Assembly: GCF_001027285.1 (NCBI RefSeq)
Contig: NZ_CP011509.1
Coordinates: 12,300,501-12,364,500 of the forward strand
Direction: 5' to 3'
Length of the DNA stretch: 64,000 bases
Source: Archangium gephyra
GTDB lineage: Bacteria > Myxococcota > Myxococcia > Myxococcales > Myxococcaceae
In this document: positions 29,834 to 58,707 of the stretch, in pieces
How the letters are laid out: every line of letters starts with the position of its first letter
Numbering within the stretch: position 1 is the first letter of the stretch
Notes under the pieces: model-generated
Told to the model about the DNA's origin: nothing
The model's input: only the letters and a program-made list of their open reading frames with translations
Database searches by the model: none
Made by a program: the position numbers and the translations under genes

Positions 29834-30646
29834 ATGAACGAGCCCACCTCCACCGCCCTCATCCCGCGCCTGCACCTCTTCGAGCTGCTCGATCAGGACT
29901 GGTACCCGCGCGCCCTGCGAGACCTGGGCACGGACTACCTCCACACCGTCAGCGAGACGACGGGCGCCTTCGATGCCGCCACGGACGTGCTCGCCCGGGG
30001 GCTGCGCGCCTCGGAGCGCCAGGAGCTGTTGGATCTCGGCTCGGGAGGCAGCGGCCCCCTGCCCCGGCTGTGCCGCATGTTGGAGAAGGAGCACGGGCTG
30101 AAGCCCCACGTGGTGCTCAGCGACCTGTACCCCACCGCCAACGCGGCCGAGCGGGCACGCGCCCATGGTGTCGACTACCTGGAGCGGCCCGTGGACGCCA
30201 CGCGGGTGCCGCCGGAGCTGCGCGGCATGCGCACCCTCTTCAACGCCCTGCACCACTTCCGGCCCGAGCAGGTCCGGCAGGTGCTCGCGGATGCGCAGGA
30301 GCGCAACGTCCCCTTCGCCGCCTTCGAGGTCATCCGCCGCACACCGGTGGGCCTGCTCACCATGTTGCCGGTGCCCTTGATGGTGTGGCTCTTCACCCCG
30401 CTCATCCGCCCGCTGACGCCGCTGCGCCTGCTGCTCACCTATGTGCTGCCGGTGGCGCCGCTCGCCAGTTTCTGGGACGGGCTGGTGTCCGCCCTCCGGG
30501 CCCACCGCCCCGAGGAGCTGCGCGCCCTGACGGCCTCGCTCGCCCGCGAGGGCTACACCTGGGAGGTGGGCGAGGTGAAACGGCCCGGCAAGCCCACCGT
30601 CACCTATGTGCTCGGGCTGCCCGCGGGCTCGCGCTCGGGGACGTAG
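29834..30646 (+). CDS. SAM-dependent methyltransferase-like protein, 270 aa
   Basis: The class I methyltransferase motif I is LLDLGSGGSGPL (about residues 65-76). Motif II is near VVLSDLYP (about 96) and a family-like FNALHHF loop near 136. The C-terminal 90 residues include a hydrophobic stretch (LMVWLFTPLIRPLTPLRLLL) that may associate with the membrane. The substrate is unknown. The last 276 bases are duplicated at 35687-35962, on the far side of the low-GC cassette. This copy is intact and in frame. Confidence 0.75.
   Translation: MNEPTSTALIPRLHLFELLDQDWYPRALRDLGTDYLHTVSETTGAFDAATDVLARGLRASERQELLDLGSGGSGPLPRLCRMLEKEHGLKPHVVLSDLYPTANAAERARAHGVDYLERPVDATRVPPELRGMRTLFNALHHFRPEQVRQVLADAQERNVPFAAFEVIRRTPVGLLTMLPVPLMVWLFTPLIRPLTPLRLLLTYVLPVAPLASFWDGLVSALRAHRPEELRALTASLAREGYTWEVGEVKRPGKPTVTYVLGLPAGSRSGT
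30371..30646 (+). repeat. Upstream copy of a 276-bp direct repeat flanking the low-GC cassette
   Basis: By eye it differs from 35687-35962 at about 7 positions, all in the first 25 and last 25 bases. The central 220 or so bases are identical. It corresponds to the 3' third of the methyltransferase gene. Confidence 0.9.
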
Positions 30647-30718
30647 CGCGTCTCCGGTTCACCGCTCGGCCATCGCAGAGCCTCCCGCCGAGGCTTTCGG
30701 AGCACCCGTACCCTCGTT

Positions 30719-31218
30719 CTATGCGTTGCCCTGGGGCTCCCGGGTGTTCCGCTCCACTTCCGGGTATTCGATGACCTCCGCCGCCTAGTGCCGCGTGCCA
30801 CACCGGTCGCAGGAATGGGAGGGCGGCTCACCATTCTCAAGGACCGTGCCGCAGCAATTGCAGGCGTAGTGCCCGGGAATGACGGCATGAAGCACGCTCG
30901 GCTCGGCCTCCTGCGTCGGGGGCGGCACGGAGAGCCCGGGCATGGACTTGAAGGCCCGGAAGATGATGAAGGCCATTGCGGACTCGCTGTACACGCGCCG
31001 TACCTGCCCCAGGTGCTTCGACGCCCGCGCCCGCAGTGCCGCGAACAGCCGATTCCTGGGAAGCAGGATCGCTCCATCTGCGCGAGCCGCAGGACGGCCA
31101 CCACCAGGACAACATCCCCGTGCGTGAGAAGCTCCGCCGCCCTCGCCCCCCTCCCCACCCCGTAGAGGACCCTCCCCCCTGCCCTCGTAGCCGACGGGTA
31201 CTGTCGGCCACTCATCAT
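30719..31218 (-). pseudogene. Decayed gene for a small zinc-ribbon protein
   Basis: The frame starts with MMSGRQYPSA at 31218 and runs to about 31075 (GDVVLVVAVLRLAQM). It then continues in another frame (LLPRNRLFAALRAR...) through a zinc ribbon (CNCC...CDRC) to a TAG at 30785, past which the same frame stays protein-like (EVIEYPEVERN) to a second TAG at 30719. One frameshift and one nonsense change explain the pattern. The GC content is like that of the chromosome. It lies between the methyltransferase gene and the low-GC cassette. Confidence 0.5.
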
Positions 31219-31290
31219 GGGACGTGGGGGTTGTGTCCCGCTTAAGCGAACGAGCAAGGGGCAGCTATGCTCGCTCGTACCCAGGCACGT

Positions 31291-31313
31291 TTTTTACACC
31301 CCAATTGTAAAAA
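31291..31313 (+). promoter_or_regulatory. Perfect inverted repeat TTTTTACA-N7-TGTAAAAA, candidate operator
   Basis: Arms 31291-31298 and 31306-31313 are perfect inverse copies around CCCCAAT, 41 bp upstream of the first gene of the cassette. The XRE-family protein encoded second in the operon is the natural candidate to bind it. Confidence 0.65.
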
Positions 31314-31354
31314 CCCCACTTGCCCTCGGGGCGACACACCAATATTGTTGTGTC

Positions 31355-31795
31355 GTGCCAATCCCGGACTTCAACGCTGAGGGGAACCTTCCCCCTGGCA
31401 TCCACGAGGCTGATTGGGCCGAGTTCAAGACTCGGTTCGGAACCACGGGCCACCGCAGGCACCTCATCAAGGGCCTTGAGGAGGCGATGAGGTCGCTTCG
31501 AACTGCGGGGTGCTCCCGGCTCTACATCGATGGAAGCTTTGTAACCTCTGAAAAGTCGCCCAAGGACTTTGATGCCTGCTGGGAAGAGACTGGCGTCGAC
31601 CCCAATCGCCTTGAGCCAGTTTTCTTTGATCTCCGTCCACCCAGAGCAATCCAAAAAGCCCGCTTTGGGGGTGAACTATTTCCGGCATCGGCTCCGGCTG
31701 ATGGGCGTTCAATGTTTGTGGACTTTTTTCAGCGGACACGCGGGGGGCAGGCGAAGGGAATCGTCACGATTGACCTCAAGGGGTGGCAGCCATGA
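31355..31795 (+). CDS. DUF6932-like predicted nucleotidyltransferase, 146 aa
   Basis: The core LYIDGSFVTSEKSPKDFDACW (given here as two parts: IDGSFVTS and DFDACW, about residues 50-70) has the GS-x(n)-DxD pattern of the Pol-beta nucleotidyltransferase fold, which transfers nucleotides to proteins, RNA or small molecules. The rest (PDFNAEGNLPPGIH at the start, KARFGGELFPA later, KGIVTIDL at the end) matches the DUF6932 pattern as I recall it. The start is uncertain: GTG at 31355 is the last before the conserved region. The stop overlaps the XRE-ImmA start (ATGA). Base composition is far less GC-rich than that of flanking genes. Confidence 0.72.
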   Translation: MPIPDFNAEGNLPPGIHEADWAEFKTRFGTTGHRRHLIKGLEEAMRSLRTAGCSRLYIDGSFVTSEKSPKDFDACWEETGVDPNRLEPVFFDLRPPRAIQKARFGGELFPASAPADGRSMFVDFFQRTRGGQAKGIVTIDLKGWQP

Positions 31796-33210
31796 TCAAG
31801 AACGAGCGCGAGTACCGAATCACCCAGACGCAGGCTGCTGAGTTCGAGCGTTCACTAGCCGAGGTCGAACAGAATCCGAACCCCGCATTGCATCCACGCA
31901 TTCTCCAGGCACAGCGCGATGCGCTTAGCGGCCAACTTGAAGAGCTTCGTGCAGAACTTGCCGAGTATGATGCTCTCCGAAACGGAGAAAAAAGGGTTCT
32001 TGAGCTTTCCTCCTTAGAGGAACTCCCTCGCGCACTAATCGAAGCGCGCATTGCGGCAGGACTTACTCAAAAAGATCTTGCCAAGCGCCTTGGTCTTTCC
32101 GAGCAGCAAATTCAGCGTTACGAGTCTACTGACTATTCAGGCGCTAGCCTTTCTCGGCTGCAAGAGATCGTGCGCGCACTCGGCATCAACATCCGAAAAG
32201 AAGTCTTCCTGCCAACCGTGGAAGTTTCTCCTGAAGCCTTGAACAGGAGACTCCAAACATCGGGCGTAGCCTCGGACTTCTTCACAAGAAGAATCCTTGG
32301 AGAAAGAGACGAAGACACCGGTAGCGTCTTTGCCCTTCGTGCCGCTGGTATGCTTGAGAAAATCTTTGGCTGGACGCCTGTCGAGCTTTTTACAGGATTG
32401 ACTCCCCTTACGCCACAGCCCGCCAGGCTAGGAGCACAATTCAAACTCCCAGCCAACGCAGACGAGCAAAAAACACTCATCTTTACATCTTATGCTCGAT
32501 TCATTATCAGCTTGGCACTGAAAGCCTCTCCCTTTGAGAACAGACCACTTCCGCGCGATGCTAAAGACTTCCAAAAAGAAGTCCTCCACGAACATGGAAG
32601 CATCAACCTGACTTCAGTCTTGTCCTATCTATGGAAGCATGGCGTGCCTGTCGTTCCACTGCAGGAGAGTGGCGGCTTCCACGCAGCATGCTGGAGATTG
32701 TCTGGCAGAAACGCAATCGTTCTGAAACAAAAAACACCCTCCGAATCGCGTTGGCTGCATGACCTTCTTCACGAAGCTTATCACGCAGCTGGGTCTCCAG
32801 ATTCCCCTGACTTCGCATTTATTGAGCAAGGACTGGGACCAATGGATCGACGTGAATCTACCGAGGAACAGGAAGCTACTTCTTTTGCAGCCGACGTTTT
32901 GCTCAATGCCAAGGCAGAAGATATGGCTAAAGAATGCGTACATGAGGCAAGAGGGAGCATCCCTCGACTCAAGTCCGCGGTAATACGTGTTGCCGAACGC
33001 AATAAAGTTTCGGTTGGCGTGCTCGCCAATTATATGGCATGGCGCCTTTCTCTCCAAGGAGAGGACTGGTGGGGCACAGCCACAAACCTTCAGGAGACCG
33101 GCGAGGACCCGCTGAAGAAGACACACCAATTCCTCATTGAACACCTAAACTGGGAAAAACTCGACCGGGTCGAGCGCGAACTCCTCATGCGGGCAATCTC
33201 GGAGAATTAA
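31792..33210 (+). CDS. XRE-family HTH / ImmA-IrrE zinc peptidase fusion, 472 aa
   Basis: The N-terminal helical part (residues 1-78, coiled-coil-like) is followed by an XRE HTH (about 81-133, ARIAAGLTQKDLAKRLGLSEQQIQRYE). A middle segment leads to an ImmA/IrrE peptidase domain with the zinc motif HEAYH (about 327-331) and a later Glu. ImmA-type proteases cleave repressors in response to damage or phage signals, and the fusion to its own HTH suggests self-cleaving control of this operon. The start overlaps the upstream stop (ATGA). Codon use is AT-rich compared with the neighbourhood. Confidence 0.87.
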   Translation: MIKNEREYRITQTQAAEFERSLAEVEQNPNPALHPRILQAQRDALSGQLEELRAELAEYDALRNGEKRVLELSSLEELPRALIEARIAAGLTQKDLAKRLGLSEQQIQRYESTDYSGASLSRLQEIVRALGINIRKEVFLPTVEVSPEALNRRLQTSGVASDFFTRRILGERDEDTGSVFALRAAGMLEKIFGWTPVELFTGLTPLTPQPARLGAQFKLPANADEQKTLIFTSYARFIISLALKASPFENRPLPRDAKDFQKEVLHEHGSINLTSVLSYLWKHGVPVVPLQESGGFHAACWRLSGRNAIVLKQKTPSESRWLHDLLHEAYHAAGSPDSPDFAFIEQGLGPMDRRESTEEQEATSFAADVLLNAKAEDMAKECVHEARGSIPRLKSAVIRVAERNKVSVGVLANYMAWRLSLQGEDWWGTATNLQETGEDPLKKTHQFLIEHLNWEKLDRVERELLMRAISEN

Positions 33211-33212
33211 CA

Positions 33213-33800
33213 ATGGCAACCAAACCACCGCTAGAGCCTCTTGCAATTTCCTGTACTGCCACCGATTGCGACAACGATCTCCACTGCTTCCTCCAGAAAA
33301 AGCGACGAGACGACGGGATGCGTGTTGGCGGCCCATGCCGTGACTGTGGCGCAGACCTTGTGCAATGGGATCGCATAACGACCCGCAATCGTTCAGATGC
33401 GGAATACAAGTTTCGTGCGATGAAGCAGGAATTGATTCGCCATGAGTTCTGGCATCGAAAGCTGGACCAACGGGCAGTCAACTACGCCCACCGCAAGGGG
33501 CGACAGTTACTAAAGGAAGCAGCAAAGGCCCGAATCGTTAGCTCAGTAGGTGGGGCAAAGCATCCTCGGGAGGGCCGCCAAACCCCGTTTGAGGGCAACA
33601 TCCTCTACTACGCACAGCATGCAGTTGCAGCATGTTGCCGCAAATGCATCGAATATTGGCATGGCATTGAGTCCGGGCGCGCACTTACAGAGCCAGAACA
33701 AGACTACTTGGCTGATTTGCTCATGCTCTATGTGAAGGAGCGATTACCAAACCTAGCAAACCAACCAATCAAAGTACCTCCCATCAGGAACAATCCGTAA
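33213..33800 (+). CDS. DUF4186 protein with N-terminal zinc-binding extension, 195 aa
   Basis: The C-terminal half matches the DUF4186 pattern: RQTPFEGN, YYAQHAVAACCRKCIEYWHGI (read as AQHAVAACC and CIEYWHGI), GRALTEPEQDYL (about residues 122-178). The N-terminal 60 residues carry C-x4-C...C-x2-C pairs (CTATDC and CRDC), a likely zinc knuckle not usual for the family. The function of DUF4186 is unknown. It starts 2 bases after the XRE-ImmA stop with GGAG upstream and ends 13 bases before the radical SAM gene, so it is in the middle of one operon. Confidence 0.78.
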   Translation: MATKPPLEPLAISCTATDCDNDLHCFLQKKRRDDGMRVGGPCRDCGADLVQWDRITTRNRSDAEYKFRAMKQELIRHEFWHRKLDQRAVNYAHRKGRQLLKEAAKARIVSSVGGAKHPREGRQTPFEGNILYYAQHAVAACCRKCIEYWHGIESGRALTEPEQDYLADLLMLYVKERLPNLANQPIKVPPIRNNP

Positions 33801-33813
33801 TGGAGAGACTCCA

Positions 33814-34851
33814 GTGCCCAAGTTAATTCAGACTGACGCCTATTCGGCACACCTGCGCGAGCGTTCAGTACGCCGAGAGGAAAGAAGGCTACAGATTGCA
33901 CGCATTGCCGGCAGTGAACAGGAGAAGGATTTAACATCGCCTCCAAATTGTGGAGGGTTTGGAAGAGTCCGCCACTTCCGTAGAACAAGTAAGTCCGGTC
34001 TCTGGCCCGCCAATCCGCTCCCAATAGATCCTGCCGCGGCCAACCTCGGACTTGAACCTAGCGAAGAACTCCGTGCTCAAGTTTTTCAAAACGCGGCATG
34101 CAATTGGCGATGCTGGTACTGTTTCGTCCCGTTTCGACTACTTGATGCCCAAGAAGACGCCGGTGCTTGGCTATCTGCCGACGAACTTATTGATCTTTAT
34201 CTGAGCGAGCCAGAACAGAGCCGGGCTCGGATGCTTGATTTGACAGGGGGACAGCCCGATCTTGTTCCAGAATGGGTACCATGGATGATGCAGGCATTTC
34301 GCGAGCGAGGACTTGAGGGAAAAGTGTACCTGTGGTCTGACGACAATCTAAGTACAGACTACTTCTGGAGGTACTTGACTCCAGCTGAGCAAGAACTCGT
34401 TGCCACGTTCGCAGGCTACGGTCGCGTCGGTTGCTTCAAGGGCTTTGATGAAGATTCATTTTCATTCAACACGCAGGCCGAGCCTCAACTTTTCAATCGG
34501 CAGTTCGACTTGTTTGAACGAATGCTCCGAACAGGAGTCGACCTATACGCTTATACTACATTCACAGCCAGATCGTCAGATGGCATCGAAGACAAGATGG
34601 CTCGCTTCGTTGATCGCCTACAAAAGATTGATGTGAACCTGCCTCTTCGCACCGTGCCGCTCCAAGTATATCCGTTCAAGGTAGTTAAAGAGCGTCTCGA
34701 CTCCCACGCTCACCACGCGAAGCTAGGCAACACACCATTTGAGGCGCAGCAGCGAGCTATTGAAGCATGGAGCCGAGAACTGGAGCGCCGATTCTCCAAT
34801 GAAATGAGACAGAGGCGAATCACTGATGTGCAGGTCACCAAAAGGAGTTGA
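33814..34851 (+). CDS. Radical SAM enzyme, 345 aa
   Basis: The 4Fe-4S-binding motif is C96-x3-C100-x2-C103 (ACNWRCWYCFV), followed by the SAM-binding GGQP (about residue 146). The N-terminal 90 residues are a basic extension, and the C-terminal half lacks extra Cys clusters, so it is not a SPASM protein. I cannot assign the reaction. The CNWRCWYCF motif resembles viperin-type motifs only loosely. Its place before a P-loop kinase gene and after a DUF4186 gene suggests a small-molecule or nucleotide modification. The start is GTG at 33814 with GGAGAG upstream. Confidence 0.82.
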   Translation: MPKLIQTDAYSAHLRERSVRREERRLQIARIAGSEQEKDLTSPPNCGGFGRVRHFRRTSKSGLWPANPLPIDPAAANLGLEPSEELRAQVFQNAACNWRCWYCFVPFRLLDAQEDAGAWLSADELIDLYLSEPEQSRARMLDLTGGQPDLVPEWVPWMMQAFRERGLEGKVYLWSDDNLSTDYFWRYLTPAEQELVATFAGYGRVGCFKGFDEDSFSFNTQAEPQLFNRQFDLFERMLRTGVDLYAYTTFTARSSDGIEDKMARFVDRLQKIDVNLPLRTVPLQVYPFKVVKERLDSHAHHAKLGNTPFEAQQRAIEAWSRELERRFSNEMRQRRITDVQVTKRS

Positions 34852-35091
34852 CCTCTTGACGTCCCCTAGCCGCATTACCTCGACGCCAAGTGCGCTTCTT
34901 TTCGAACAGCCAAGTCAAGAATCTACCGCACTCGGGCATTGATCCAAGAGCCTATTTCAGTAGGCCCTCGTCCTTGACCGGTTAGTCCTCTGGCGGGAAG
35001 CGACCAACGGTGTCTACCGAAACAGATGCTAAGAGGTCCAGAGCAGTCGAGTATGATTCGCCGATCGCTCAGCCCATGAGGATTTCTTTCA
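34852..35091 (+). other. 240-bp gap inside the low-GC cassette
   Basis: No open frame or hairpin is evident. Its composition is like that of the cassette. It may hold the promoter of the P-loop kinase gene; I could not identify one with confidence. Confidence 0.4.
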
Positions 35092-35631
35092 ATGAAATAC
35101 AGTCTCGTCGTTGGCGTCGCCGGTGGAATAGGTAGCGGGAAAACTGAGTTTGCGCATCAACTCGCTTCTGCAATGCACGCTTCTTTTCTCTCGTTCGGTG
35201 ACTATGTGAGAAGGCGCGCAACAACTCTTGGGATGGACCTTAGCCGAGACAACCTCCAAGCACTTGGTGAGCGATTAATCTCCGAGATGGGATGGGACGA
35301 ATTCGTAGGAGATGTCCTTTTATCCTGGTCCCGCTCTGAACCATTAATCCTTGATGGAATTCGGCACGAAAAGGCTGTTGAGAGCATCAAGAAACTGGTT
35401 GCCCCTGCCAATTTCTCCTTAGTGTACCTCAGCGTAGACAAAACCATTCGAGTTGGGCGCCTGTCCACAGTGCGCCCGCATGACGCCATCGCCATCGAAC
35501 GACTCGAGCAACACTCGACGGAACGAGATGTGCATTCAAAGCTTTCCGATCTGGCTGACATCGTTCTCGATGGAAGCAGAGCAGTCCCAACGCTTGTGCA
35601 AGATGCTCTAGAAGCACTCCATCTCAGCTGA
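35092..35631 (+). CDS. P-loop nucleoside/nucleotide kinase-like protein, 179 aa
   Basis: Walker A is GGIGSGKT at residues 11-18, followed by FLSFGDYVRRRAT and LILDGIRH (about 83-90), which fits the dephospho-CoA kinase/adenylate kinase/dNMP kinase group. An Arg-rich lid (RVGRLSTVRPHD) is present. The length fits a small-molecule kinase. It is the last gene of the low-GC cassette, 241 bases after the radical SAM gene, with GAGGA upstream of the ATG. A radical SAM enzyme with a nucleotide kinase recalls viperin plus nucleotide-kinase gene pairs, but that link is by analogy only. Confidence 0.75.
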   Translation: MKYSLVVGVAGGIGSGKTEFAHQLASAMHASFLSFGDYVRRRATTLGMDLSRDNLQALGERLISEMGWDEFVGDVLLSWSRSEPLILDGIRHEKAVESIKKLVAPANFSLVYLSVDKTIRVGRLSTVRPHDAIAIERLEQHSTERDVHSKLSDLADIVLDGSRAVPTLVQDALEALHLS

Positions 35632-35686
35632 TTGAAGAAGGGGCGGAGAAGAAATAATCGACGAAGTTGAAGTTAATCGATGGTCC

Positions 35687-35962
35687 GTGCCGCTGATGGT
35701 GTGGCTCTTCACGCCGCTCATCCGCCCGCTGACGCCGCTGCGCCTGCTGCTCACCTATGTGCTGCCGGTGGCGCCGCTCGCCAGTTTCTGGGACGGGCTG
35801 GTGTCCGCCCTCCGGGCCCACCGCCCCGAGGAGCTGCGCGCCCTGACGGCCTCGCTCGCCCGCGAGGGCTACACCTGGGAGGTGGGCGAGGTGAAACGGC
35901 CCGGCAAGCCCACCGTCACCTATGTGCTCGGGCTGCCCGCGAGCTCACGCTCGGGGCAGTAG
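35687..35962 (+). pseudogene. 3' fragment of the methyltransferase gene, downstream copy of the direct repeat
   Basis: The 91 codons are nearly identical to the last third of the methyltransferase encoded at 29834-30646, with its own stop codon and no 5' part. The junction with low-GC sequence is at about 35686. It marks the right border of the cassette. Confidence 0.9.
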
Positions 35963-35976
35963 AGGCTCGCCCGCCC

Positions 35977-36516
35977 CTACTTCAGCAGCAGGGAGTCCGG
36001 GCCCCGCACCTCCACCCAGTCCTGCGTGGAGAACACCTCCGCCAGGCCTCGCAGCACGGCCTCCCGGTCGAGCACCGCCCGCTTCGGCAGGAAGAACTCG
36101 AGGCCCGTGATACCGCTGCGCCAGGTGCTGAAGTGGTGCCGGGGCTCGGCGATGTCCCGCTTCTCGAAGAGGAAGATCTCCCAGGGCCGGCCCGGCACGC
36201 GGTAGCTCCCCTCGACGACGTCCGCGTCCTCACCCACGACGGTGTCGAAGCTCAGCTCGAAGCGCCGGCCCTGGTGGGCCTCCTCGGCGTCGAGCCGGCC
36301 CGTCGGCTGGAGGCTGGACTCCAGGAACGAGGCGTAGCGGTCCAGCGTGGGGAAGTAGACGCAGTAGCCCCACTCGGTCCACTCGCCCCGCCTGTACACG
36401 GCGGGATCGCACCAGATGACCGTGCCGAGCTGCCCGGTGAACTCCCTGCACCCCGGCCCGTCGGCCACCACCGAGACGACCTCGAACCGGCGGATTCCAC
36501 TCTCCTTCTTCTGCAT
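35977..36516 (-). CDS. Imm31-like hypothetical protein, 179 aa
   Basis: The N-terminal 75 residues (FEVVSVVADG, LGTVIWC, GEWTEWGYCVYFPTLDRYASFLESSLQPTG) resemble the Imm31 immunity-protein pattern: a beta-barrel-like fold with a short YxVYF strand and a final L-x-P-TG. The C-terminal 100 residues are not recognised. There is no signal peptide. It is 11 bases downstream of the lipid-kinase gene, so the two share a transcript. No matching toxin gene is next to it. Confidence 0.55.
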   Translation of the reverse strand: MQKKESGIRRFEVVSVVADGPGCREFTGQLGTVIWCDPAVYRRGEWTEWGYCVYFPTLDRYASFLESSLQPTGRLDAEEAHQGRRFELSFDTVVGEDADVVEGSYRVPGRPWEIFLFEKRDIAEPRHHFSTWRSGITGLEFFLPKRAVLDREAVLRGLAEVFSTQDWVEVRGPDSLLLK

Positions 36517-36527
36517 GGCCCTCCTCT

Positions 36528-37535
36528 TCAGGCCACGAGCCGCTGGAGCTGCCGCCAGTCCACCAGCTGCACGGACTCCTCGGCCAGGTCGAACTCCAGC
36601 GAGCGGCGCATGCCCATGATGTCACCGCCCATCTGGAAGGGCACGTCGCGATCGAAGTCCATGCGCACGCGCTCGACGAAGAAGTCGTGCATCCGGGGCA
36701 TGGGGTGTTGGCCGCGCCACAGCCGGCGCATGTTGAGCGTGGCCTCGACCACGCCGGCGCCATAGACGCGCACGGACAGCCGGTGCGGCACCGCCTGGGC
36801 GAAGGGGAAGGCCTTGAAGCCGAAGCCCCACTCGGTGGTGGTGGCCGCTCCGGCGACGCCCGCGGGGCCCTCGTAGAGCAGCGCGCCCGTCTCCCCGTGG
36901 GGCAGCGGCACCACGAGGCCGCGCTCGTCCACGGTGAGCGCCGGAGCCCCCAGGTTGTACACCTTCACCTGCAGCTGGCTCTTGCCGAACATGTGCCGGG
37001 GAATGGTGCGGGTGAACAGGGCGCTCATGTAGCCGCGCAGGCCGGCGTTCGCCTCGCGCAGGGGGCCCGCCGGGAACTTGGACAGGTGGTCCTTGAAGTC
37101 CTGCAGCGTCTCCGAGTCCCAGCCCGTCCCGGCGAAGGGCGCCACCCGGTTCTCCAGCCGCACCAGCGAGAAGGGACGCAGGGGAGGCAGACGCTCGCCA
37201 CACGCGGCCAGCTGGCGCAGGGCCACCGAGGGCTTGGGCGCCCCGGTGACACGCGCCCACGCATTGCCCGTGCCCAGCGGCAGCACGCCGATGGCCGGCA
37301 GTGCCACGCCCTGCTCGCGCAGCTCGTTGAGCAGCCCGGTGATGGTGCCGTCACCGCCTCCGGCCAGCAGCAGCGTGGGCGGGTTGGGCCGCAGCTGCTC
37401 GGTGATCCACGTCCGGGCCTCCTCCAGCGAGCGGGTGAGGGCCAGGCGGGCCCGGGGGAAGAAGCGCTGCACCATGCCGCCGATTCTCTCGGAGCCCCGG
37501 CGTGCGCGCAGATTGACCATCACGGCGATGTTCAT
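36528..37535 (-). CDS. Diacylglycerol kinase catalytic-domain protein (lipid kinase), 335 aa
   Basis: The DAGK catalytic motifs are clear: LLLAGGGDGTITGLL (about residues 60-74) and IGVLPLGTGNAWAR (about 82-95), followed by a second beta domain with FAGTGWDSE. This family phosphorylates diacylglycerol, sphingosine-like bases or related lipids with ATP at the membrane. The ATG at 37535 gives the usual NIAVMVN first strand; the frame to 37565 adds 10 unlikely residues. It is upstream of and probably co-transcribed with the Imm31-like gene. Confidence 0.88.
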   Translation of the reverse strand: MNIAVMVNLRARRGSERIGGMVQRFFPRARLALTRSLEEARTWITEQLRPNPPTLLLAGGGDGTITGLLNELREQGVALPAIGVLPLGTGNAWARVTGAPKPSVALRQLAACGERLPPLRPFSLVRLENRVAPFAGTGWDSETLQDFKDHLSKFPAGPLREANAGLRGYMSALFTRTIPRHMFGKSQLQVKVYNLGAPALTVDERGLVVPLPHGETGALLYEGPAGVAGAATTTEWGFGFKAFPFAQAVPHRLSVRVYGAGVVEATLNMRRLWRGQHPMPRMHDFFVERVRMDFDRDVPFQMGGDIMGMRRSLEFDLAEESVQLVDWRQLQRLVA

Positions 37536-38050
37536 GGCGGTGTCACTCTCCCCAAGCCATGTCATGGTTTCGTCATGGCGGCTCTACCCGGTGGTCATCT
37601 TCAAGTGAAGGACACATGAGGGGTTCCCCTCACCCAGCGGAGGTGAGCGCCATGTACTCCCACGCTGTGGCGTGTCCGTGACGAGCGCAAGCCGGACCAC
37701 CGGGTCCATTGTTGGGCGCATGAACGGAATCCCCGTCTGGCAAGATGGAGATGACGCGGAGCGGCGCACAGAAGCCCTCGTCAGGTCCCCCGGAGGGCGG
37801 GCGAGGTGGCTCCAGGCACCAGGACGGGCCGTCCATGATCGGGACGGAACAGACGAAACCCGCGGCGGCCGCTGGAGGATGAAGCCCGAAGACACCGTGA
37901 CGGGTAGGGAGCCGGAGGCCCGCCCAAGGGTGCGGAATGATTGCGTTCTGGCGCGGGGCGGGTGGGTTGTGGGCGTGGCGGGGCGGCTGGTATCTCGGCG
38001 GCCGGAGGCCCGGCGGACGGCGGAACGGGCCCTGCAATCGCGCCCGGACC
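37536..38050. other. 515-bp divergent region, no gene supported
   Basis: Frames exist on both strands (for example 37672-38118 plus and 37584-37895 minus), but they lack protein-like composition and consistent codon bias. The region must contain the promoters of the lipid kinase and PEGA-protein genes; no clear motif was recognised. Confidence 0.5.
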
Positions 38051-56617: not shown

Positions 56618-57346
56618 CTACTCCTTCGCCAACCCCTTGATGTCTTCCATGATGCCTTGGAAACGCCGGAACTCCTCGGCGTTCCGCATCCCCACCCGGA
56701 ACGAGAAGCCTGGCTCGTCGGGGGACCGATAGAGCTCGATGGCCGCGTCGTCCCGTTCGAACAACATGCAGCGCTGAGGATAGGGAAGGCGCACGAAGCG
56801 CAATCTCTCGAAGATGCGAGCAACATCCTCGGCATCCAACAACTCATTGGGCGGCACGTTGGCGAGCCTGCTGTAATACGCGGCACGATGAGGAAAGGTC
56901 GGAAGACCGACGTTGCTCATGGCCCACACGAAGAGCATCTCCCGCAGGCTCATGTACAACGGGGAGCCGTGTTTCTTCCACTCCTCCGTGCCAAAGGGAA
57001 ACCGAAACACCTTGCAATCCCCATCTTCGGACGGCGCCTCGAGATCGAGCCAGTAATGCTGGTCATCGGGGGAGGGATCACCGAACACAAACAGGAATCG
57101 CCGCGGCGGCAACTCCCTCCACGCGACTTCGTAGAGTTCGGTGACGTCGTAGGGGTCATACGAGTCTACATGGGCAAGCAGCGGACCACCGTCCTTCCCC
57201 ATGACCTCGACAAACTCTTGATAGAACTCCGGAAGTGATTGCCCGAAGACTTTCTTCAGCATGAAGAGGTTCCAGGCTGAAGCGCCCTGGATCCTTTCAG
57301 CATAGCCAGGAGCGTAACGCTCGAGCAGCGCCAGGAGTTCGTTCAT
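56618..57346 (-). CDS. SUKH-like immunity protein, 242 aa
   Basis: The pattern LPEFYQEFVEVMGKDGGPLL near residues 35-55, then FLFVFGDPSPDDQHYWLDLE and FRFPFGTEEW, fits the SMI1/KNR4 (SUKH) group of immunity proteins. Its ATG overlaps the stop of the DUF4150 effector gene (ATGA), exactly where a cognate immunity gene should be. The match is by pattern; a more distant DUF is possible. It has lower GC than the flanking chromosome. Confidence 0.68.
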   Translation of the reverse strand: MNELLALLERYAPGYAERIQGASAWNLFMLKKVFGQSLPEFYQEFVEVMGKDGGPLLAHVDSYDPYDVTELYEVAWRELPPRRFLFVFGDPSPDDQHYWLDLEAPSEDGDCKVFRFPFGTEEWKKHGSPLYMSLREMLFVWAMSNVGLPTFPHRAAYYSRLANVPPNELLDAEDVARIFERLRFVRLPYPQRCMLFERDDAAIELYRSPDEPGFSFRVGMRNAEEFRRFQGIMEDIKGLAKE

Positions 57347-58707
57347 GAGGGGCACGCCTCGCTCTGTTTACAGCTTATTTCGGGGGTGAGCGCCTGGCAG
57401 GCATCGCAAGAAGGGACCGACTCTCCATGGCTGAACTTCTCCGCCTTCTCACTGATGAGCTCATCCCCATCCATGCGCGTGACCTTATCTATCGTGACCG
57501 TGTAGTCCGTCTGCACCGGTGAGTACCAGCGCTCCGACATGGCCTTGATCTTATGCCCAGCACCACCCGCCTGAAGGAGTTTGGGAGCCGCGCACTCCCA
57601 ACCATCCCGCTTTTTCTTCTTCTTCACTTCTTCAAGCCCCTCCTTCAGTGAATCGTCCATGTCGATCGTATCGACCAGGGTGAACAGCCTGGTGGCGTTC
57701 ACCGCATTCTTGAATCCGTGCGTGGGCTTACCCGAGCACGCTGCGAGCATCTTCGGCTGCCGGACGCAATTGCAGATACAGGCGCCAACCATGTAACCCT
57801 TGACGTATGTCTTCTCCTTTCTGTCCATATGCAGCACATGTATTGGATCGAGCTTCCCGTTGATCTCGTCCATCTTCCGCGTCAACTCGTTGTACACCTC
57901 CTTGTTTTCTTCATTTTTCCTATCTGCTGCTTTCTCTATGGCATTAATCTCGTTTTCGAGCTGGGTGATTCTCTCTTGAAGTGGCTGCCTGTCCTGTGCT
58001 CCCTTCACCTGCGCCTGCAGTAATTTCTTTTCCGCCAACTTACCGGCCCGCCCCTCGGACTGGTACACAGCTTCGGCCACCCGCTTCTGGTCCTCGTCCA
58101 CAGCCTTTCGTTCCTCTCTCAGCTTTTTATACTCCTCGATGAGAGGTTTCTGTTCCTTGAGCAGCTTCGCGAGTTCCAGGAAGACCATGTCCACGTGCCC
58201 CTGAACCTCCTGGGTCTCGTGAACCCGGTGCTTTTCCACCGGTTTGTCGCAAGGTTTTTTGTCGATGATCCTCCGGCACTTCGCGTCATCGCCATAGGCC
58301 AGCCCCGTTCCCCCTTTGGAGACGAAGCTGGTATTGAAGGTGTTGCCGTTGTGCAGGGTGGGATCGAGAAACCGCACCACGCCCTTGCCCTCGATCTTCA
58401 CGTCCGTGCTGGAACCGCTCCAGGTGAGCTTTCCCTTGAACTTGGAGGAGATGAGGCCTCCCGCCGTCCCCGGCTCGTCACCGGAGCTGGTGCTGAGCTC
58501 GGAGCTCGACAGCACCACGGGATTGCCTTCGATCTCCGTCTTCTTGCTGCCCTTGGCGAGCATCGAGTCCTGAGCCGTGTTCACGAAGGGCGTGGGCACC
58601 GGGCCTCCGGGAGTCGGGACCTTGCAGACATCGGGCGGCGCCGAGACGTGTGTATTCCCATCCCCCTTGTGGAGAATCGAGCGGCCATTGGCGAAGACGC
58701 TTCCCAT
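57343..58707 (-). CDS. Type VI effector with N-terminal PAAR-like DUF4150 domain, 454 aa
   Basis: Residues 1-125 are a DUF4150 domain (SVFANGRSILHKGDGNTHVS, PPDVCKVPTPGGPVPTPFVN), which caps the VgrG spike and carries a toxin. The centre (about 170-290) is a long charged coiled coil. The C-terminus (about 305-454) has a Cys cluster (GACICNC, PSCDACQ, ISCKQSEAC) and a HGF segment. It may be the toxin domain but I cannot name the fold. GC content is lower than that of the flanks, a sign of transfer. The immunity gene overlaps its stop. Confidence 0.8.
   Translation of the reverse strand: MGSVFANGRSILHKGDGNTHVSAPPDVCKVPTPGGPVPTPFVNTAQDSMLAKGSKKTEIEGNPVVLSSSELSTSSGDEPGTAGGLISSKFKGKLTWSGSSTDVKIEGKGVVRFLDPTLHNGNTFNTSFVSKGGTGLAYGDDAKCRRIIDKKPCDKPVEKHRVHETQEVQGHVDMVFLELAKLLKEQKPLIEEYKKLREERKAVDEDQKRVAEAVYQSEGRAGKLAEKKLLQAQVKGAQDRQPLQERITQLENEINAIEKAADRKNEENKEVYNELTRKMDEINGKLDPIHVLHMDRKEKTYVKGYMVGACICNCVRQPKMLAACSGKPTHGFKNAVNATRLFTLVDTIDMDDSLKEGLEEVKKKKKRDGWECAAPKLLQAGGAGHKIKAMSERWYSPVQTDYTVTIDKVTRMDGDELISEKAEKFSHGESVPSCDACQALTPEISCKQSEACPS

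Follow-up and report, generated by a model that had tools for sequence, protein, structure and literature searches.

A mobile DUF4186 and radical SAM operon with a conserved operator in Archangium gephyra and other prokaryotes, and its possible role in inducible defense

A low-GC cassette of five intact genes

The window analyzed here is a stretch of 64,000 nucleotides (nt) of Archangium gephyra DNA, spanning 12,300,501-12,364,500 of a 12.49-Mb genome in one contig, and it contains a cassette of five genes, the features of which are listed in Table 1. An earlier note, made from the letters of this DNA, had described five same-direction genes of low GC content, the first two coupled by ATGA and the following ones spaced by 2 and 13 nt, and this description proved accurate. 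All five open reading frames (ORFs) are present, intact, and on the + strand, and in the GC profile the region from 31355 to 35631 has a GC content of 0.531 versus 0.692 for the window, being the lowest 4.3-kb stretch there. The stop codon of the nucleotidyltransferase gene overlaps the ATG of the XRE-ImmA gene as ATGA (31792-31795); the XRE-ImmA and DUF4186 genes are separated by 2 nt, the DUF4186 and radical SAM genes by 13 nt, and the kinase gene is preceded by a gap of 240 nt. The family identities proposed in the note were likewise recovered, with E-values of 1.2e-38 for DUF6932, 1.2e-11 for HTH_3, and 1.2e-28 for DUF4186, 1e-4 for the radical SAM protein with its CX3CX2C motif, and 1.8e-9 for AAA_18 in the kinase, together with the HExxH motif of ImmA. 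As for the limits of the cassette, the right end at 35686 coincides with the edge of a 285-nt direct repeat, but the first start codon is GTG 31355 rather than a position near 31217, since homologues begin at that GTG.

Table 1. Features of the cassette and its borders in the 64,000-nt window
Feature	Position	Strand	Remarks
Left copy of 285-nt direct repeat	30371..30655	+	Natural 3' end of a host gene for a methyltransferase-like protein; aligned with siblings
Putative operator palindrome, ACACACCAATATTGTTGTGT	31334..31353		One mismatch to ACACAAC-N6-GTTGTGT; ends just before the first start codon
Same palindrome in longer span, CGACACACCAATATTGTTGTGTCG	31332-31355		Upstream of the first gene
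DUF6932 Pol-beta-type nucleotidyltransferase	31355..31795	+	GS...DxD motif; start codon GTG according to homologues
XRE helix-turn-helix fused to ImmA/IrrE metalloprotease	31783..33210	+	HEAYH; homologues begin at ATG 31792
Zinc-ribbon and DUF4186 protein	33213..33800	+	CCxxC
Divergent radical SAM enzyme	33814..34851	+	CNWRCWYC and invariant C46, C207
Gap at the place of the methyltransferase-like (X430) and ASCH genes of full operons	34852..35091	+	
P-loop kinase, adenylate/(d)NMP/dephospho-CoA kinase type	35092..35631	+	GGIGSGKT, DGIRH
Right copy of 285-nt direct repeat	35687..35971	+	Duplicate of the same 3' gene end; aligned with siblings

The stretch that separates the left repeat from the cassette is high in GC and contains a 69-amino-acid ORF (30785-30994, - strand), which encodes a rubredoxin-like zinc ribbon (CxxC...CxxC). 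At 57 to 58 kb of the window, there is another patch of low GC content (0.55), where, by eye, two neighboring ORFs on the - strand resemble a DUF4150/PAAR-type secretion tip that bears a C-terminal domain (57343-58707) and an SMI1/KNR4-type immunity protein (56618-57355).

The cassette is a mobile passenger

The two direct repeats that surround the cassette are 96% alike. Five congeneric genomes lack the cassette, and in them the gene located here at 36528-37565 comes immediately after the end of the host gene. The only further copy found in the same family (genome G080, locus L115) occupies a different site and is bounded by a 111-nt direct repeat of 95% identity that extends into a tRNA-Gly gene. 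Given the empty sites in the sister genomes and the repeat-bounded copies at two sites, the cassette is a foreign, mobile passenger that has entered at two different sites. No integrase gene was recognized in either insert. Just outside the right repeat there is an ORF of 179 amino acids (35977-36516, - strand) with a host-like GC content of 0.70 and no Pfam match, which is absent at the same site in the five sibling genomes.

When the radical SAM protein was used as the query, seven plasmid records were retrieved, all below 60% identity; six of these plasmids are predicted to be conjugative, and five of the records, inspected with their annotation, have the same gene order as the cassette. 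A phage origin was dropped because phage records and viral contigs contained no relative.

The genes form a conserved operon in 14 or more phyla

Relatives were encoded in 84 stretches among 84,980 species (one genome per species), a count that is only a lower bound since the search relies on short motifs, and 80 of the stretches became loci. They are distributed patchily over 14 or more phyla, comprising bacteria and one thaumarchaeon, and are partly plasmid borne. Family profiles defined a full form in which seven genes follow one another in the order DUF6932 nucleotidyltransferase, XRE-ImmA, DUF4186, radical SAM, X430 (a methyltransferase-like protein with a DPPWY motif), ASCH, and kinase. 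Co-occurrence was counted at 67 loci with enough flanking sequence, for which the radical SAM protein had been the sole search criterion. The kinase was present at 65 of them, XRE-ImmA, DUF4186, and ASCH at 62 each, X430 at 61, and the nucleotidyltransferase at 51, and 46 loci possessed all seven genes. The DUF4186 and radical SAM genes are nearly always adjacent, with short gaps between them, and fusions join XRE-ImmA to the kinase (L065), X430 to ASCH (L039 and L050), and ASCH to the kinase (L023).

The earlier note had staked its idea of a system on co-occurrence in other genomes. The same gene set is found together in more than 60 other genomes, far beyond chance, and its order is kept across the 14 or more phyla. 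These data indicated that the genes almost certainly constitute one functional system. One could still regard them as unrelated hitchhikers on an island, as the foreign composition and the insertion scar would allow; the conservation of gene order, fusions, and operator (see below) across phyla refutes this reading and leaves it next to no probability.

The system as such thus stood, but not as one of five genes, because the usual operon also contains X430 and ASCH, which the window has lost. The window copy is a short form, and no remnants of X430 or ASCH were detected in its 240-nt gap before the kinase. Further short forms are present in G080, a Paenibacillus, and a melainabacterium. The core thus consists of four genes (XRE-ImmA, DUF4186, radical SAM, and kinase), to which the nucleotidyltransferase is usually added.

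In the tree of the radical SAM proteins, 14 taxonomic groups are represented, and at least 25 changes of group label are required versus a minimum of 13, which fits horizontal spread without proving each transfer. The nearest relatives of the window copy are those of G080, Anaeromyxobacter, and Myxococcales, all in one supported group that lacks X430. Both this placement and the base composition fit a myxobacterium.

Some loci show individual departures from this pattern. The thaumarchaeal copy (L032, 8996-11155) may be decaying because an IS1595-type transposase gene interrupts its X430 gene. In the alphaproteobacterial loci L005, L052, L062, and L081, a DUF763 gene lies directly downstream of the kinase gene.

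A conserved palindrome at the operon start and a probable XRE-ImmA switch

The palindrome ACACAAC-N6-GTTGTGT, allowing up to two mismatches, occurs at 67 sites in the 1.26 Mb of DNA fetched, versus about 2 expected, and nearly all sites lie at the start of an operon. Among the loci led by the nucleotidyltransferase gene, 57 of 59 carry it (54 with at most one mismatch), and at these 57 loci it precedes the conserved front codons by 22 to 174 nt (median, 28 nt). The thaumarchaeal copy possesses it as well. In the window, the site of the cassette is the only match (0.05 expected), and it is also the only strong site in the 12.5-Mb genome, where sites with two mismatches elsewhere number 69 versus 47 in the control, near control level; therefore, no regulon of the palindrome is visible in the whole genome. 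One operator shared by nearly all nucleotidyltransferase-led loci and essentially absent elsewhere is new here. Three copies exhibit matched changes in both halves (ACCCAAC..GTTGGGT in L069 and L115 and TTACAAC..GTTGTAA in L089), and such symmetric double changes are as expected of a bound palindrome.

Loci without the nucleotidyltransferase begin with a different front, consisting of a DUF4160 gene and an XRE-ImmA gene encoding another N-terminus, and 9 of 12 such loci carry a second palindrome upstream, TTAAC-N6-GTTAA, of which one site was found elsewhere. This second lineage swaps both the front gene and the predicted operator. The joint replacement of the front, the N-terminus of XRE-ImmA, and the palindrome provides good evidence for binding of XRE-ImmA to the predicted operator, and autoregulation through this site is very probable.

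The protease residues are invariant in the alignment of XRE-ImmA homologues, 79 of 81 of which possess HExxH. The earlier note had cast XRE-ImmA as sensor and switch, and this idea gains strong, if indirect, support from the invariant protease residues, the operator conserved in nearly all nucleotidyltransferase-led loci, and its replacement in the second lineage. In the PprI-DdrO and CapP-CapH pairs, single-stranded DNA (ssDNA) triggers cleavage of the repressor by the ImmA/IrrE protease (PMC10904395). The window protein resembles these pairs in combining an XRE repressor with an ImmA/IrrE metalloprotease, and as in CapP/ImmA-type switches a helix-turn-helix and an HExxH motif go together with a predicted operator at the controlled promoter, so that derepression triggered by ssDNA serves as our working model. 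It differs from CapH/CapP, which regulate CBASS, and from DdrO/PprI in that repressor and protease are fused, the conserved operator is dedicated, and the controlled operon is not CBASS.

An alternative is an addiction or regulatory module, akin to a toxin-antitoxin set, that keeps islands and plasmids in their host and is not directed at phages. Parts such as XRE-ImmA and the nucleotidyltransferase are common in toxin-antitoxin loci, the operon resides on plasmids and islands, and its variant form has the DUF4160 front; however, seven enzymes would be unusually complex for such a module, and no clear constant toxin is present, which makes this explanation improbable.

Enzymes of the operon and candidate targets of the radical chemistry

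The structure model of the radical SAM enzyme (pLDDT of 93.6) was compared with solved folds. Pyruvate formate-lyase activase was its nearest neighbor (Z score of 16.5 over 230 residues, 3.2 Å), clear of the rest, followed by QueE (13.6), RlmN and spore photoproduct lyase (12.4), and viperin (11.8), with middling Z scores being common; sactipeptide maturases were among the top Foldseek matches. Two cysteines outside the cluster motif, C46 and C207, are also invariant. Viperin identity was rejected, since the match yielded 20.4 bits over residues 94-167 versus a curated cutoff of 180 (NF038283). For the DUF4186 protein, the structure model (pLDDT of 92) gave no match above chance in a comparison with the PDB, which is not evidence for a new fold. 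Profiles of DUF4186, X430, radical SAM, the nucleotidyltransferase, and ASCH retrieved nothing reliable in PDB sequence searches. The kinase is closest in sequence to adenylate-kinase-related and dephospho-CoA kinases and also matches a phage dNMP kinase family. X430 carries DPPWY, as in amino-methyltransferases, in 66 of 71 homologues and gives a weak Pfam match to N6-adenine methyltransferases. ASCH domains are predicted binders of modified bases (PMC7641849).

In decreasing order of likelihood, we rank a nucleotide, a nucleic acid, and a protein as the possible target of the radical chemistry. The nucleotide-like product proposed in the earlier note is plausible; the kinase points that way, as do the dCTP-deaminase-like and dGTPase genes described below, but the nearest solved fold of the radical SAM enzyme is that of an activase acting on a protein, with viperin more distant, and DUF4186 matched no fold in the PDB.

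If a nucleic acid were the substrate, the radical SAM enzyme, the DPPWY protein, and the ASCH reader would introduce an unusual base into DNA or RNA and recognize it there, as a mark or as restriction of invaders. The radical SAM enzyme is like RlmN or spore photoproduct lyase in size and extra cysteines and finds both among its structural neighbors; the weak methyltransferase match of X430, the X430-ASCH fusions, the prediction for ASCH, and the zinc ribbon on DUF4186 agree with such a function. Yet X430 and ASCH are dispensable, as their loss from the window, L007, and L044 indicates, there is neither a specificity subunit nor a constant nuclease, and the kinase is left unexplained. We consider base modification unlikely.

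Protein radical chemistry has a still lower probability. Here, the radical SAM enzyme would act like an activase or a peptide maturase on DUF4186 or another protein, modifying or activating it, and control of that protein would fall to the kinase and the nucleotidyltransferase. Such a role is suggested by its top structural neighbor, which modifies a protein, by the sactipeptide maturases among the Foldseek matches, and by the near-constant adjacency to DUF4186, but the DUF4186 alignment contains no glycyl-radical motif or precursor-peptide layout, its cysteines look metal binding, and no gene for a glycyl radical enzyme is linked.

Neighborhood and comparison with known defense systems

Five loci contain a dCTP-deaminase-like gene between the DUF4186 and radical SAM genes, a dGTPase gene lies beside five cyanobacterial copies (PADLOC dGTPase, 6.1e-73), and patatin phospholipase genes lie beside four copies; matches to CBASS-type phospholipase effectors were also obtained. 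Enzymes of these three kinds, which deplete nucleotides or kill the cell, are known from defense. In the operon described here, the homologues of antiphage dGTPase and dCTP deaminase are optional neighbors, and they and the patatin genes occur at a minority of loci and are absent from the window. Other neighbors include AbiEi, prokaryotic Argonaute (pAgo), type IIG restriction enzymes, and integrases. Because control genes in the outer flanks of the same loci are also rich in defense functions, the neighborhood argues for mobile islands in general and not for defense in particular, and we claim no special enrichment beside the operon. Thus, of the co-occurrence in defense islands that the earlier note had envisaged, the genes do occur together and the loci do lie in islands, but the far-flank control is also defense rich. 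On the accessory genes, the defense-rich neighborhoods, and the patchy mobile spread, we consider a role of the operon in defense rather probable.

Additional kinase copies stand beside the operon in L080 (11263-13569), L050 (10782-12299), and L078 (10643-12345), the one in L080 adjoining a patatin gene; such an extra kinase may be a duplicate that serves as an effector partner. In the melainabacterial L074 (2077-3968), which lacks X430 and ASCH, two patatin-type genes directly follow the kinase, as if one module had replaced another.

Prokaryotic viperins (pVips), some of which have a linked nucleotide kinase, are similar in possessing a radical SAM CX3CX2C motif, a nucleotide-type kinase in the operon, and defense-rich neighborhoods. 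They differ in that the radical SAM protein of the window fails the curated viperin model, has a fold nearer to pyruvate formate-lyase activase and QueE, and is nearly always accompanied by DUF4186 and XRE-ImmA in its family. The (PIN-)GNAT-EVE operons, putative defense or toxin-antitoxin loci, also combine ASCH, an AAA_17-type P-loop protein, and XRE; their EVE, GNAT, and PIN parts are absent here, and the passages on those operons mention no radical SAM, DUF4186, or DUF6932 gene (PMC7641849). Several known systems were rejected. CBASS would need a CD-NTase, and the sole nucleotidyltransferase here is DUF6932, with no PADLOC Cyclase match. RosmerTA shares the XRE-ImmA architecture through its antitoxin RmrA, but the RmrA match covers only the helix-turn-helix of the window protein, and no gene matched an RmrT-like toxin. 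For HEPN/MNT toxin-antitoxin, the neighbor of the nucleotidyltransferase is XRE-ImmA, and no HEPN match was obtained. The mad1-8 set of MADS is absent, with only weak partial matches to mad1, mad2, and mad8. Apart from these rejected systems, the model for subunit A of the PADLOC candidate PDC-M63 matches the DUF6932 gene (5.7e-11); the PDC-M63 models gave no match to the other window proteins.

Literature searches on DUF4186, DUF6932, DUF763, and the gene combination, whose scope lay mostly outside subscription journals, found no description of such a system, in agreement with the earlier note, which knew of none with this gene set. A paper on Tolypothrix mentions some of the genes, but only as components of an 18.4-kb plasmid insertion, which carries the operon (L004) in strain PCC 7712 and is absent from PCC 7601 (PMC9679502). 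In the PADLOC-DB of 2023, the DUF4186 protein has no match, and the radical SAM protein gives, at best, a weak partial hit to viperin.

A tentative model for an inducible defense operon

Our leading reading, a tentative one, is that the copy in the window is a short form of a mobile operon that regulates itself and most likely acts as an inducible defense against viruses or other elements. Its steps, including repressor binding and cleavage, the trigger, the defense role, and the nucleotide substrate, are what we infer from the conserved genes and motifs. XRE-ImmA seated on the palindrome at the operon start would keep the operon off. An infection or DNA-damage signal, by analogy ssDNA, would activate the ImmA protease part, which would then cut the repressor, so that the operon opens and the enzymes are made. 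DUF4186 would act with the radical SAM enzyme to bring about a radical-chemistry change on a nucleotide or a nucleotide-derived small molecule, and the kinase would phosphorylate the modified molecule to its active form; the nucleotidyltransferase, together with the X430 and ASCH proteins in full forms, may regulate or tailor the product. If the operon does serve defense, a nucleotide-type product is slightly favored. A broader and more doubtful proposition is that the operon represents a new inducible antiviral class of bacteria and archaea, in which DUF4186, together with a radical SAM enzyme other than viperin, makes a novel modified nucleotide and the kinase of the operon activates it, under a fused repressor-protease whose operator is kept across phyla and domains.

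If true, the model would provide a second, independent prokaryotic route to radical SAM chemistry in immunity, with a DUF4186 protein that matches no solved fold, and it could shed light on the orphan DUF4186 family, which reaches Escherichia coli (YneG). Since 57 of the 59 loci share one 20-bp switch, common to many phyla, the trigger is directly testable, and a reporter with a single promoter could serve in the search for the signal. Furthermore, closely related strains of cyanobacteria that differ in possessing the operon already exist.
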